This document shows positions 33,265-38,371 of a DNA stretch of 64,000 nucleotides, piece by piece. The notes beneath the pieces were generated by a model. It was not told where the DNA came from, did not search any database, and was given only the letters and a program-made list of their open reading frames with translations. Location: assembly GCA_902500825.1 (NCBI GenBank), contig CABVRX010000013.1:1-64000 (forward strand). Direction: 5' to 3'. A program made the position numbers and the translations under genes. The stretch is from an uncultured Nitrospira sp. (GTDB lineage Bacteria > Nitrospirota > Nitrospiria > Nitrospirales > Nitrospiraceae). Every line of letters starts with the position of its first letter. Within the stretch, counting starts at the first letter, position 1.

Positions 33265-33525
33265 GTGGTGACGTATCAGATCGAGTTCTCTCGTCAAGCC
33301 GCTCGCCAGTTCAGGAACCTGCCATCCCAGATTCAACAGCGACTCAAATCACGAATCGACTCCCTTGCCGCAATGCCACGTCCTCATGGATCTGAAAAAC
33401 TCAGCGGCGCTGATCAGCTCTACCGTATTCGTGTTGGAGACTATCGCATCGTCTATGCCGTTGAAGACAATCGACTATTTGTGCTCGTCGTAAAAGTTGG
33501 CCATCGTCGTGAGGTCTATCGTTAG
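33265..33525 (+). CDS. RelE/ParE-type toxin
   Basis: 86 residues, GTG start (a second GTG follows at once). FSRQAARQFRNLP, LSGADQLYRIRVGDYRIVY and VVKVGHRREVYR are the core RelE signatures, including basic residues used for mRNA cleavage. Paired with the antitoxin directly upstream. Confidence 0.88.
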   Translation: MVTYQIEFSRQAARQFRNLPSQIQQRLKSRIDSLAAMPRPHGSEKLSGADQLYRIRVGDYRIVYAVEDNRLFVLVVKVGHRREVYR

Positions 33526-33568
33526 GACCAGAGTCAGAATGACCAGTATCTGTACCGGAGGCCCATTC

Positions 33569-34342
33569 ATGAAGACCAGTTATTCCTGGAAGCACTTCCC
33601 GCATTCCCTGCTTGTCATTGCCACTCTCGCCGTGCTCGTGTCTGGTTGCTCCACCACGAGCAAGGAAACCAAGAGTGCGTCAGTTTCCCCTCAAGAGCCC
33701 ACCGATGCTGCGATTGAGCGCTACATCCGGGCTCATCCGGAAGTGATCGAACAATCGCTCCAGGGATTGCTGGCCAAACGCGAAGCAGAACTGAAGGAGC
33801 GTCACAAAGCTGCCCTGGCAACGAAGCAAAACGAACTGTTGCACGATCCGGCATCACCGGTCAGCGGCAATCCGAAGGGCGAGATCACCCTGGTCGAGTT
33901 TTATGACTATCGCTGCGGATTCTGTAAGAAGGCAGCTTCGGCTGTCACGGAACTCCAGAAGGTCGATCCACGGGTGCGCGTCGTCTACAAGGACTTCCCC
34001 ATTCTGGGTGAACCATCGGAACTCGCGGCCAAGGCCGCGCTCGCGTCTCAAGCGCAAGGCAAGCACCAAGCCTTCCACGAAGCGTTGCTCGCTTCCCACG
34101 CAGACATGAGCAAGGAAGCTATCTTGAAGATTGCCGTGAATGTCGGTCTCGATGCCAAGCGCCTGGAAACGGACATGGCCAATCCGAAGTGGCAGGCCGT
34201 CATTGAGAAAAATCGAGCCCTGGCCCGCGAACTGGGCATTTCGGGGACACCAGGCTTTATCGTGGGCAATGAACTGGTACCTGGATGGTTGGATTTGAAC
34301 GGACTAAAAGAACTCATTGCGCGGGCGGGACACGGACGATGA
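33569..34342 (+). CDS. DsbA-family thiol-disulfide lipoprotein
   Basis: 257 residues from ATG 33569 (GGAGG seven bases upstream). Lipobox VSGC puts lipid at Cys27. An N-terminal helical stretch with HPEVIEQSLQGLLAKREAEL precedes a thioredoxin-fold DsbA domain with CGFC at about residues 116-119 and a cis-Pro in SGTPGF. This type oxidises or isomerises disulfides in the periplasm (DsbG/ScsC-like). A decayed second copy of its 3' end lies at 35076-35279. Confidence 0.9.
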   Translation: MKTSYSWKHFPHSLLVIATLAVLVSGCSTTSKETKSASVSPQEPTDAAIERYIRAHPEVIEQSLQGLLAKREAELKERHKAALATKQNELLHDPASPVSGNPKGEITLVEFYDYRCGFCKKAASAVTELQKVDPRVRVVYKDFPILGEPSELAAKAALASQAQGKHQAFHEALLASHADMSKEAILKIAVNVGLDAKRLETDMANPKWQAVIEKNRALARELGISGTPGFIVGNELVPGWLDLNGLKELIARAGHGR

Positions 34343-34499: not shown

Positions 34500-34772
34500 A
34501 TGCCAACGATTTCCATGTTTTATGGGATTCTCATTCGGATGTTCTTTCGAGACACCGAGAAACACCACATGCCACACATACATGCCGACTATCAAGGTAA
34601 AGTTGCAGTGTACTCCATCCCTGACGGAACGCTTTTGGCCGGCGACCTGCCTTCGAATAAACACAAGCTAGTCGTCGCATGGATCGAGATTCATCAAGAA
34701 GATCTGCTTGCAGACTGGGATTTGGCTGTCAAAGGTAAGAAACTCTTTCCAATCAAAGGACTTGACCAATGA
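34500..34772 (+). CDS. DUF4160 protein
   Basis: 90 residues. MFFRDTEKHHMPHIHADYQGK is the hallmark region of DUF4160 (conserved His residues). The next gene overlaps by four bases and is DUF2442; the pair recurs in bacteria and is thought to be a toxin-antitoxin-like module, although its activity is not settled. No ribosome site of good quality precedes the ATG. Confidence 0.85.
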   Translation: MPTISMFYGILIRMFFRDTEKHHMPHIHADYQGKVAVYSIPDGTLLAGDLPSNKHKLVVAWIEIHQEDLLADWDLAVKGKKLFPIKGLDQ

Positions 34773-35026
34773 GAATTACGGAACTACACGCAGACCCAAA
34801 CTGGGTGCTATCCATCGTGACAGATGATGGTCGCATCGGCCGGTTTGATGTGAGCCCCTATCTTCAGTATGAGGCGTTCGAGGCGCTTAGAGACCAGAAC
34901 GAGTTTGTGAAGATCATCAATGGTGGGTACTTTGTCGAATGGGATTGTGGTGCTGATTTGTCAGCGGACACTATTGAGGCACGGTGGCAGCTTGTTGGAG
35001 AGGCAGCCCGACAGAGAACCGCATAA
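34769..35026 (+). CDS. DUF2442 protein
   Basis: 85 residues. ITELHADPNWVLSIVTDDG and GRFDVSPYL ... FVKIINGGYFVEWDCGADLSADTI are typical of DUF2442. It is translationally coupled to DUF4160 (ATGA). The bases right after its stop, GCATAACAA then CGGCGGACTTCGC, look like the left half of an integron attC but lack a matching right half. Confidence 0.85.
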   Translation: MRITELHADPNWVLSIVTDDGRIGRFDVSPYLQYEAFEALRDQNEFVKIINGGYFVEWDCGADLSADTIEARWQLVGEAARQRTA

Positions 35027-35075
35027 CAAATCGGATCGGCGGACTTCGCTAATCCCTCCCTCTGATTTTACGATA

Positions 35076-35279
35076 CGTCTCGGCCTCAATGCGAAACGGC
35101 TGGAAGCCGACATGGCCAATCCCAAGTGGCAGGCCGTCATTGAGAAAAATTGAGCCCTGGCCCGCGAACTCGGCATCTCTGGGACGTCCGGCTTCATCGT
35201 TGGTAATGAGCTGGTACCGGGATGGTTGGATTTGAAGGGGCTGAAGGAGTTGATCGCGCGGGCGGGACAGGGAAAATGA
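35076..35279 (+). pseudogene. Decayed second copy of the DsbA-like 3' end
   Basis: About 200 bases align with 34143-34342 of the intact DsbA-like gene (LEADMANPKWQAVIEKN, then ARELGISGTSGFIVGNELVP, then GLKELIARAG). A CGA-to-TGA change creates a stop in the middle and no 5' part with CGFC is present. The DUF4160/DUF2442 pair lies between the intact gene and this fragment. Confidence 0.9.
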
Positions 35280-35502
35280 CGAATCGTTGGAAAGGCACAG
35301 GCACAGTATGGGCAGCCGGTGTTCGCAGGCCGCTGGATGGGCTGCGCGCCACTCAGGAGAGTGCTGTTATGCCGACCCGTATAAGAACCTATACTCAACG
35401 GTCATGGTGTATCGTTCACGAATCGCAGTGGCCTGTTATACGGACAGAAATCGGGCGTTCCAGCTCTTATGCGGATTGGCCTAAACATAGTTGGGTGGCA
35501 TC

Positions 35503-35877
35503 ATGAAGCGCTTGGCACGGTTCGCGGCCGCATTGGTACTGCTGACCCTGGTATCCGGGTGCTCGACGATTGGGAGCAAGTACGGGTCGAAGCACCGCGA
35601 TGAGCACGGCATGCCCCCGCAATTCGGGTACGCGTACTCCGGCATGGTGAGCTGGACAGGCAATTGGTGCTACTTCGTCTCACCGAACATGGAACACCTT
35701 CACATCAAGATCATTGTCGCCCCATTGATGTTTGTGTTCTTGCTAGTTGACCTTCCGCTCAGCGCTGCTGCGGATACAATCGTTCTGCCGTTCGAAGTGT
35801 TCCATGAACCGACGACACCACGTCTGACACTGACCGACGAGTGCAACTATTCGAGTATGAAATTGATCAAGGATTGA
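35503..35877 (+). CDS. YceK/YidQ-family lipoprotein (probable integron cassette gene)
   Basis: 124 residues. Signal peptide with lipobox VSGC, then GSKYGSKHRDEHGMPPQFGY, a hydrophobic mid-segment (LMFVFLLVDLPLSAAADTIVLPFEV) typical of YceK/YidQ proteins and a short tail. Role unknown; probably an outer-membrane-attached protein. The stop codon is four bases before an attC site, the geometry of a mobile gene cassette, and a GTTGGGT core-like sequence occurs just before the gene at 35490-35496. Confidence 0.82.
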   Translation: MKRLARFAAALVLLTLVSGCSTIGSKYGSKHRDEHGMPPQFGYAYSGMVSWTGNWCYFVSPNMEHLHIKIIVAPLMFVFLLVDLPLSAAADTIVLPFEVFHEPTTPRLTLTDECNYSSMKLIKD

Positions 35878-35881
35878 TGCC

Positions 35882-35965
35882 GCCCAACAACGCGCTTCAC
35901 CGGACGCACCCGCTTCGCGGGAGTTCCCTCGCTTCGCCCGGCGCCGGTGAGCGCGGGCGTTAGAC
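35882..35965 (+). other. Integron attC recombination site
   Basis: 84 bases from GCCCAAC (R'' box, RYYYAAC) to GTTAGAC (R' box, GTTRRRY). The arms pair as CGCGCTTCACCGG against CCGGTGAGCGCG, leaving one unpaired T in the left arm, the extrahelical base pattern used by integron integrases to choose the strand. The centre (CGCTTCGCGG) is a variable stem. It directly follows the lipoprotein stop in cassette orientation. No integrase gene is present in the window. Confidence 0.85.
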
Positions 35966-35985
35966 CTTCGAGGAGAGGCAACCTT

Positions 35986-36121
35986 ATGACTACTCGGCGC
36001 AGTTTGGTAAGTTACTTGGTGCTCTCACGGCAGCCACCTTCCTGGGTGGCACAAAGGAAGCATTTGCGGTGACGAATGGCAAAGATACTTGGTTTATGCC
36101 AGAGGAGAGTGATCATCACCT
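35986..36121 (+). pseudogene. Frameshifted N-terminal fragment, agmatine-deiminase-like with Tat-type leader
   Basis: ATG at 35986 with GAGGAGAGG upstream gives MTTRR, then a one-base deletion shifts the frame. The other frame continues QFGKLLGALTAATFLGG, a twin-arginine-type leader, and WFMPEESDHHLQTW, resembling the start of agmatine deiminase family enzymes. The similarity then ends. It begins 21 bases after the attC, where the next cassette's gene would start. Confidence 0.5.
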
Positions 36122-36346
36122 GCAGACATGGATTCATAAGGACAGGGTCGGGTCTTGCAATCAAGTATTGTGTATCTGCTCCGGCGCGTGGCCTGCATCA
36201 CGTGACGTTTGGGGATCGTTTCATGGCAGAGCCTCGATGATTCAGTAGCCTGCCGCCATTCTTTCACCATCCAGCCCTGATCTATCCATATTGCACCTCG
36301 GTCTGGCGGTGCGTATGATCGCACGGCTCCATCTCGAGGAGGTTCT
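36122..36346. other. Gap before the metallo-beta-lactamase-fold gene
   Basis: No gene or RNA can be supported here. The right end holds GAGGAGG, the ribosome site of the next gene. Confidence 0.4.
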
Positions 36347-37078
36347 ATGGCGAAGATCACCGAGATCGCTCCGGACCTATTTCGAATCACGACCTTCCTT
36401 GCACCGTTCAATATTCAGTTCAGTCAGTTTTTGATGCGTGACGATGAACCGCTGTTATTTCATACCGGCCCGCGGGCGCTGTTTCCAGAAGTCAAATCCG
36501 CCGTGGCGTCGCTTATCGATCCGCAGACGTTGCGATGGATTGGCTTCAGCCATTTTGAATCCGACGAATGTGCGACAGTGCCGGAGTGGCAGCGACTGGC
36601 TCCGCACTCAGAAGCGGTGTGTAGTCTGGTGGGCAAGATGGTGAGCGTTGATGATTGTCTGGCGCTTCGTCCCGCCAAAGGGATGGCCGATGGCGAGCTA
36701 ATCGAAACCGGGCGATACCGCTTTCGCTTTCTGGCGACGCCGCATGTGCCCCATTGCTGGGAAGCCGGGCTACTGTTCGAGGAAACGGAGCGGACGCTCC
36801 TGTGCTCGGATCTCTTTCACCAAGACGGGGATGTCGAACCGATGACGGAATCGGATGTCATCGACCGCTGTCGGAAGACGCTGCTGGGCTATCAGCAAGG
36901 TCCGTTGGCGAATTACGTGCCCTATTGTTCCGTGACTGATGCGACGCTACATCGGCTGGCGGCGCTACATCCGAAGCAACTGGCGACCATGCACGGCTCA
37001 GTCTATGTCGGCGATGGAAGTAAAGCGCTTCACGATCTTGCTACTGTTTGGCGGGAGGTCCTCAGTCCGCAGTCATAA
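36347..37078 (+). CDS. Metallo-beta-lactamase-fold protein (flavodiiron/ODP-like domain)
   Basis: 243 residues with GAGGAGG before the [12 protein letters not shown] corresponds to the HxExD metal-binding motif of the flavodiiron oxygen-reducing branch, with further ligands in [18 protein letters not shown] and MHGSVY. It lacks a flavodoxin domain. It could bind a diiron centre that senses or reduces O2 or NO; hydrolase activity is less likely. Single gene. Confidence 0.85.
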
Positions 37079-37162
37079 TCTGAACTGATTGGCTGCAACC
37101 ATCCATGTAATAGAACCGACCAAAGAAGGTGTTGATTGCGCTGCCACAGTGAGGAACAGTGC

Positions 37163-38371
37163 ATGGGCAAGAACATCATCATCTGCTCGGACGGCACCGG
37201 AAACACATTCGATCGCCACGTGACCAACGTGACGCATCTGATCGAGTGTCTGGCACTAGATAATCATAATCAGCAAGTGGCGGTGTATGACCAAGGTGTG
37301 GGCACGAGTGTACATCGCTGCAGGAAGGTGGATGCGTACAAGGAAGATCTCAAAGACAAAGAAGCCCTTCGGGTTCTACCGCCTCCGATCGAATCAAGGT
37401 TCCGGCCAAAGGCGTGGTTCGACCGCGGGCGTGGGCTCCTCTTCGGCTACGGTCTCAAGGAGAATGTTCGCGAAATGTATCGAGAGCTATCGAACTTGTA
37501 TGCTGGATCTGACGATCGAGTGTTTCTGTTCGGCTTTAGTCGCGGTGCGTTCACGGTGCGCGCCTTGGCCGGGTTGTTATACCGGTGCCGACTTCCGCAG
37601 CCTGGGGTCACCGACTTTGATGCACGTTTCAACCGAGCATGGGAACTCTATGAGCCGATGCGTGAGGATGAGACAGCGACCATGCCGTTCCGCAAGGACC
37701 AGCGATGGTGTCCTATTCATTTCCTTGGCATGTGGGACACGGTGAAATCCTATGGCGGACTTAACCCCGTCATGTTGCCGCATCTTCGTCACAATCCCAT
37801 CGTAAAATATGTTCGTCATGCCCTTGCGCTGCACGAACACCGCGCGTGGTTCCAACCCACGACGTGGGGATTACTCGACTTAGATAAGGAAGGTGCCGTG
37901 ACGCGTCTCAAGAAAGCGGATCTCCCATCTTACGAACAGCAAGATATTGATGAGGTGTGGTTCGGTGGCTGCCACTCCGACATCGGTGGCGGCGACAAAG
38001 AAGAAGTTACCGCAAGAATTGCCTTGCGTTGGATGTTGGGCGAAGCCGTAAACGTCGAGTGGGGCCTGAAATTGAACCATACAGGCAGGGCGTTACTCGG
38101 AACCGACGATCTGCCAGGGTTACCGGAGATCCATGATTTATGGAATCTCGGTTGGTGGACAGTGGAGCAGGTGTTGAGGAAGGAGATCGACAATAGCGGC
38201 ATCCATCCCATCAAAAAATGGGCATGGGGAAGTAATGGAAAACGAGAACCCGCCAAGCGGCTTCATCGTTGCGGCGGTAAAGTTTTCCTGCACGTGACCG
38301 TGGGCAGTAGGTATTTGGTCCCGGGCAAGGTCGTACAGCGTCACACCAAGTCATTGCCCAATGAAGCCTAA
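37163..38371 (+). CDS. DUF2235 alpha/beta-hydrolase-like protein
   Basis: 402 residues from the ATG at 37163 (GAGGAA seven bases upstream; the frame is open from 37136). KNIIICSDGTGNTFD opens the DUF2235 domain, GFSRGAF is the nucleophile elbow and GGCHSDIGGG holds the late Asp/His region. Relatives include Tle1-type phospholipase effectors, but no type VI secretion gene is near and no signal peptide is seen. Likely a cytoplasmic lipid or ester hydrolase. Confidence 0.88.
   Translation: MGKNIIICSDGTGNTFDRHVTNVTHLIECLALDNHNQQVAVYDQGVGTSVHRCRKVDAYKEDLKDKEALRVLPPPIESRFRPKAWFDRGRGLLFGYGLKENVREMYRELSNLYAGSDDRVFLFGFSRGAFTVRALAGLLYRCRLPQPGVTDFDARFNRAWELYEPMREDETATMPFRKDQRWCPIHFLGMWDTVKSYGGLNPVMLPHLRHNPIVKYVRHALALHEHRAWFQPTTWGLLDLDKEGAVTRLKKADLPSYEQQDIDEVWFGGCHSDIGGGDKEEVTARIALRWMLGEAVNVEWGLKLNHTGRALLGTDDLPGLPEIHDLWNLGWWTVEQVLRKEIDNSGIHPIKKWAWGSNGKREPAKRLHRCGGKVFLHVTVGSRYLVPGKVVQRHTKSLPNEA

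Follow-up and report, generated by a model that had tools for sequence, protein, structure and literature searches.

Integrons are usually described as intI-attI-cassette units. The window, a 64,000-nucleotide stretch from the genome of an uncultured Nitrospira sp., contains a hairpin with the features of an integron attC site directly behind a small lipoprotein gene. An earlier, sequence-only reading considered this site a complete attC without an integrase. The question is whether the hairpin is a genuine recombination site and, if it is, to what kind of integron it belongs and how a cassette came to lie there. The features of the locus are listed in Table 1.

Table 1. Features of the locus between the dsbA-like gene and the MBL-fold gene (window coordinates)
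Feature	Position	Strand	Basis
dsbA-like gene, conserved left flank	33497..34342	+	Pfam DSBA, 92 bits; gene order in most mapped relatives
DUF4160-DUF2442 gene pair, inserted after dsbA and ahead of the integron remnant; not part of the integron	34500..35026	+	Pfam matches
Duplicated dsbA 3′ end, accompanying the DUF pair; integron remnant starts after it	35067..35279	+	tblastn, dsbA residues 212-281, 83% identity
Putative intI fossil, last ~9 codons	35318..35344	+	GVRRPLDGL vs GVRSPLDGL/GVRSPLDGM, C-termini of near-complete and intact relatives
Element read as attI	35367..35496	+	HMM of 57 genus copies, E 3e-31; alignments; ends at core GTTGGGT, 35490-35496
Gene cassette 1	35491..35959	+	G|TT of attI core to G|TT of attC core; core positions
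Cassette gene, 124-aa lipoprotein, DUF1375/YceK-YidQ-like, lipobox LVSGC	35503..35877	+	
attC of cassette 1	35882..35965	+	Covariance model R1, 51.8 bits, model positions 1-72 of 72
Beginning of cassette 2, N-terminal piece (frameshifted and truncated) of a PAD_porph/agmatine-deiminase-like gene with Tat leader	35960..36152	+	Matches full-length relatives
ODP-family metallo-beta-lactamase-fold (MBL) gene, conserved right flank	36347..37078	+	

The attC site and its cassettes

The core boxes and pairing arms noticed at first sight are present. The R″ box GCCCAAC, which fits RYYYAAC, occupies 35882-35888 and the R′ box GTTAGAC, which fits GTTRRRY, 35959-35965; the left arm, GCGCT(T)CACCGG(A)CGC, pairs with the right arm, GCGCTCACCGGCGC, the L″ arm being located at 35892-35903. 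As had been claimed, the site follows the stop codon of the lipoprotein gene (35877) immediately. The folded bottom strand displays an R stem, an L stem and bulges. The extrahelical T reported earlier is T35897, but the count of one needs correction, A35904 being unpaired as well. Since both bases are on the L″ side of the + strand, the cassette has the same orientation as the lipoprotein gene. Comparison with 43 further attC sites, taken from plasmids, from this genus and from integrase loci across many phyla, shows the geometry to be standard. Class 1 cassettes (aadA1, aac(6′)-Ib and others) share the R″-L″-loop-L′-R′ order, the two extrahelical bases on the L″ side and the cut G|TT; unlike them, the cassette of the window is chromosomal and sedentary, has no resistance link, stands in the opposite orientation with respect to the integrase and has its own attI sequence.

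The covariance model R1 was built from 14 attC sites, some from class 1 cassettes on plasmids and others located next to IntI genes in other lineages, none of which is labelled as belonging to the genus or phylum of Nitrospira. Its structure is supported by covariation, with 87.8% of cells paired vs 67.6% in shuffles and a score of 0.533 vs 0.176. The model matches the site over its full length, with a score on the + strand (Table 1) that compares with 17.4 bits on the − strand and E values of 1.7e-10 in 295 kb and 2.2e-9 genome-wide; the sub-threshold score that would have spoken against a complete attC was not seen. With R1, held-out attC sites located next to integron integrases within the genus reach scores of 24-64 bits. 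In the genome, a draft of 50 contigs, part of the attC candidates were scored; among these the site ranks first by far, followed by a listed site of 21.4 bits at C1:118779. When both cores and arm pairing are required, a scan of the 64 kb picks out one site, compared with none in the reversed control, and a single attC is present within 33.4-37.2 kb with filters off. A search with the core motif alone, giving 107 matches vs 208 in the reversed control, is uninformative.

The reading of the hairpin as an ordinary terminator or a REP- or MITE-like repeat behind a gene, to which a GC-rich inverted repeat directly after a stop codon and a single-strand folding energy unexceptional for such GC-rich DNA (z −1.1 to −1.8 vs shuffles) would be congenial, is extremely improbable and was rejected, as it is contradicted by the score of a model from other phyla on the right strand with cores and both extrahelical bases, and as the hairpin has no T run, no terminator-like site, no Rfam match and no second strong copy among the scored candidates of the genome. 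By structure and model score, the stretch 35882-35965 is a genuine attC.

The boundaries of cassette 1 are set by the known integron cut G|TTRRRY. The product of its gene matches the DUF1375/YceK-like family with 22.3 bits at a cut-off of 20.3. No relatives of this lipoprotein were found in the 79 genus genomes or in the plasmid, viral-contig and species-genome collections, where the pattern-based scans reach close relatives only. Behind the attC, an ATG at 35986, 21 bases past the site, opens the fragment of a second cassette, readable at 36003-36152. Pfam and PDB searches with this 50-aa fragment gave no match, and it was identified solely through its full-length relatives in G066, G011, G027, G099 and other genomes; these are PAD_porph/agmatine-deiminase-like (370 bits). 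The earlier proposal of a frameshifted agmatine-deiminase-like second cassette agrees with the finding of the gene as a complete attI-gene-attC cassette in G075 and G066. At the loci L277, L278, L280 and L281, in several species of the genus, the Tat-leader gene of this family is again found as a cassette, accompanied by attC and mostly also by attI.

The attI element and the remains of an integrase

The core-like GTTGGGT that had been noticed ahead of the lipoprotein gene is the start of the cassette and the end of a repeat of about 100-130 bp. Among the copies of this repeat in the genus, 57 were aligned and match well up to ...CGGATCGGCCTAAACATTGTTAGGC and diverge completely beyond, so that conservation stops at GTTRRRY. 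In G094, which has an intact integron integrase of 435 aa, the element lies about 50 nt past the stop codon of the integrase gene. It is also located on the same strand behind near-complete or fragmentary integrases at L036, L041, L042, L221, L236 and L240, and in several of these loci attC sites come next, again on the same strand. Of these, L042 and L041 are the other copies in the genome of the window, at C1 and C6, both directly behind IntI 3′ remnants. Because the element ends at GTTRRRY and directly follows intI in relatives, it is read as attI. A view of the ~130-bp repeat as MITE-like, suggested by its inverted TTATGC/GCATAA motifs, was dropped, since copies lie behind the IntI stop codon on the strand of intI, stop at GTTRRRY and precede attC cassettes.

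The copy in the window carries an internal deletion of 33 bp. Twenty-two bases before it lies GGTGTTCGCAGGCCGCTGGATGGGCTG (35318-35344), fused to the duplicated dsbA end. This stretch of 27 nt was identified by its position and by alignment to relatives and has no score of its own. An intI 3′ motif is found near at least 11 of the 57 attI copies, vs 1 in 114 controls. Judging from these alignments, the integrase has shrunk at this locus to about its last nine codons. In the window fossil, in G094 and at L036, L240 and L236 the strand and order are the same, with transcription of intI running toward attI and the cassettes. This order, intI > attI > cassettes, is known from Treponema (PMC3607928) and is the Treponema-type orientation.

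Integron integrases are able to insert cassettes outside integrons, at attG sites (PMC12901181), and the core alone is short; the cassette might have entered a chance GTTRRRY site, by recombination of attC with a genomic site and no attI. This off-target insertion was rejected and is very unlikely, being contradicted by the 130 bp before the core, which belong to the conserved family found beside IntI genes and are preceded by the intI fossil.

A match to a sigma-70-like promoter (TTGAA.../TATTGT) is present in 32 of the 57 attI copies, for the most part at a single position; shuffled sequences give 3.8. The 33-bp deletion takes the −35 part of this putative promoter, conserved in other copies, out of the window copy, in which no promoter-like site was found; for this reason cassette 1 may be silent.

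The statement that the attC has no integrase holds for the whole genome, where there is no TIGR02249 match above the cut-off and no intact integron integrase; besides the 27-nt fossil, C1 and C6 each have one longer remnant of intI. As no intact integrase is present now, the array is frozen. The CALIN-like label suggested earlier is apt in that an attC is present without an integrase, but the locus is not a mere CALIN, since attI and the 3′ fossil of intI sit directly upstream. By the default of IntegronFinder 2, a CALIN has at least two clustered attC sites without an integrase, and here there is one. A complete integron has a functional intI, which is missing here, and a core-ended attI beside intI, for which 35367-35496 stands, its family lying beside intact IntI in G094. 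The locus is best described, with a probability of about 93%, as a remnant, integrase-dead chromosomal integron whose position between dsbA and the MBL-fold gene is fixed.

The gene order TPM-dsbA-[variable]-MBL-NADb is kept in most mapped relatives; in G007 only about 320 bp separate dsbA from MBL. Homology of the right flank to relatives restarts between 36151 and 36242, which delimits the integron remnant to about 35.3-36.2 kb. The DUF4160-DUF2442 pair with the dsbA 3′ duplicate is found, whole or partial, at the same locus in G010, G012, G013, G016 and G059 and also at L248 (2523-3265); in G010 it splits attI into overlapping halves. It looks like a small insertion unit carrying a copy of the dsbA end. 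On the right, the MBL gene adjoins a Tle1-like phospholipase domain protein (37136-38371; PF09994, 211 bits).

The same genome contains a second integron wreck behind a mazG-like gene (L042 8977-10847; C1:117.0-118.8 kb). It consists of an IntI remnant, an attI, two decayed attCs and a Tat-leader intradiol-dioxygenase-like cassette (113 bits); its upstream flank is common to G012, G016, G063 and G101. The 21.4-bit site at C1:118779 and a 26.3-bit C1 site (L042 9990-10052) lie behind the IntI remnant. The third attI of the genome (L009/L041; C6:107.4-107.8 kb) is accompanied by an IntI 3′ remnant with a stop and lies beside a polyprenyl-synthetase-like gene.

Probable cassette exchange at the orthologous place

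The same truncated junction of dsbA, intI fossil and attI is present in two other species, G064 and G084. Their identity to the window is 78-82% up to the core and at shuffle level past it; exactly from the attI core onward, the three genomes, that of the window (G000) included, all differ in sequence. At this locus an attC of its own is present in G064 (43.4 bits) and a weak one in G084 (19.1 bits). Damaged attI pieces remain at the orthologous place in G066 and G010. A conserved site accompanied by non-cassette sequence in related genomes, which would have told against an integron, was thus not encountered, as the orthologous site holds other cassettes.

In the ancestral integron, intI would have been read toward attI and the cassettes, as in the Treponema type. 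For capture of a circular cassette, an integrase would have bound its attC as a folded bottom strand and joined the circle to attI between the G and the TT of the core. The local integrase would have been lost before the three species separated, while cassettes were apparently still exchanged at attI afterwards. Because the same truncated intI/attI junction is followed by different cassettes in the two other species, capture here was probably performed in trans by the integrase of another integron of the cell; judged by these comparisons, cassettes were presumably exchanged after the resident integrase broke. Elsewhere in its genome, G084 retains an intact IntI. Recombination at dsbA is another way in which the shared junction may have spread, although a precise join to attI would even then call for an integrase.

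It is also possible, if less probable than exchange in trans, that the cassettes were captured under an intact resident integrase into one longer ancestral array and that later deletions left different first cassettes in the three species, with no trans activity. Multi-attC arrays do exist in the genus (L045, L226), and the presence of a second, broken cassette after the first suggests that the array here was once longer. Against this, the truncated intI junction is common to G000, G064 and G084, whose sequences nevertheless differ exactly from the attI core, and the precise removal of intervening cassettes would also need integrase activity after the truncation. This alternative concerns the in-trans step only; the integron remnant itself is the same under both.

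An orphan attI with a 27-nt integrase fossil, at an orthologous place in three species and with different cassettes, makes trans exchange and its evolution directly testable.

Integrons across the genus

The sequence-only reading regarded gene cassettes with attC but without an integrase as no usual feature of this lineage. The survey of the genus contradicts it: of 79 genomes, 63 have attC sites and 61 have attI, with IntI above the cut-off in 8. Integron remnants are common in the genus and mostly dead, and these counts trace the decay of integrons in nitrifiers as a natural series. A protein of the ammonia monooxygenase family, present in 49/79 genomes including that of the window, suggests that the genus is of the comammox type.

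The earlier work found on integrons in these nitrifiers reports only two CALINs, detected by IntegronFinder 2.0 in one species, Candidatus Nitrospira inopinata (PMC9024848). As in the window, an attC and a cassette are present there without an integrase in the genome, and the genus is probably the same; the window differs in having one attC only, together with an attI and an integrase fossil, which is beyond what a CALIN call describes. Chromosomal integrons of the Treponema type resemble those of Nitrospira in their gain and loss across a genus (PMC3607928), but they belong to another phylum, and in Nitrospira several dispersed, mostly integrase-dead loci occur per genome. The integron of the window itself is another case of a known remnant chromosomal integron; what may be new to a specialist are the tandem attI arrays of the genus and the probable trans exchange of cassettes.

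These tandem arrays contain 2-4 complete attI copies on one strand, often 0.6-3 kb apart (L221, L222, L223, L224, L225, L232; G026, G098, G065, G091). In several cases an attC lies 110-170 bp ahead of the following attI, which gives [attI-gene-attC] repeats. Many tandem attIs have a different conserved leader (CGACCCAAAGCAGAAGTACACGACCGACCGCTATCAGA...) in place of the intI end. The attI copies inside arrays of relatives of the window genome recall attI-type cassettes (attI-ORF-attI, delta-attI; PMC12901181), whereas the window has a single attI. In class 1 integrons such arrangements are rare and quickly excised (PMC12901181), in contrast to the tandem attIs here, which persist in integrase-poor genomes.

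Tentatively, and with rather less than even odds, the genus may be pictured as having a distributed integron, with many fixed attI landing sites, mostly without an adjacent integrase and some in tandem attI-gene-attC form, which would be filled and emptied by a rare trans-acting integrase; the window would then represent an orphan attI whose cassette was exchanged after integrase loss.

Outside the family, a genome of the same order (G042) contains three distinct integron integrases on contigs C39, C78 and C99 (L034, L036, L037), one of them with a premature stop.
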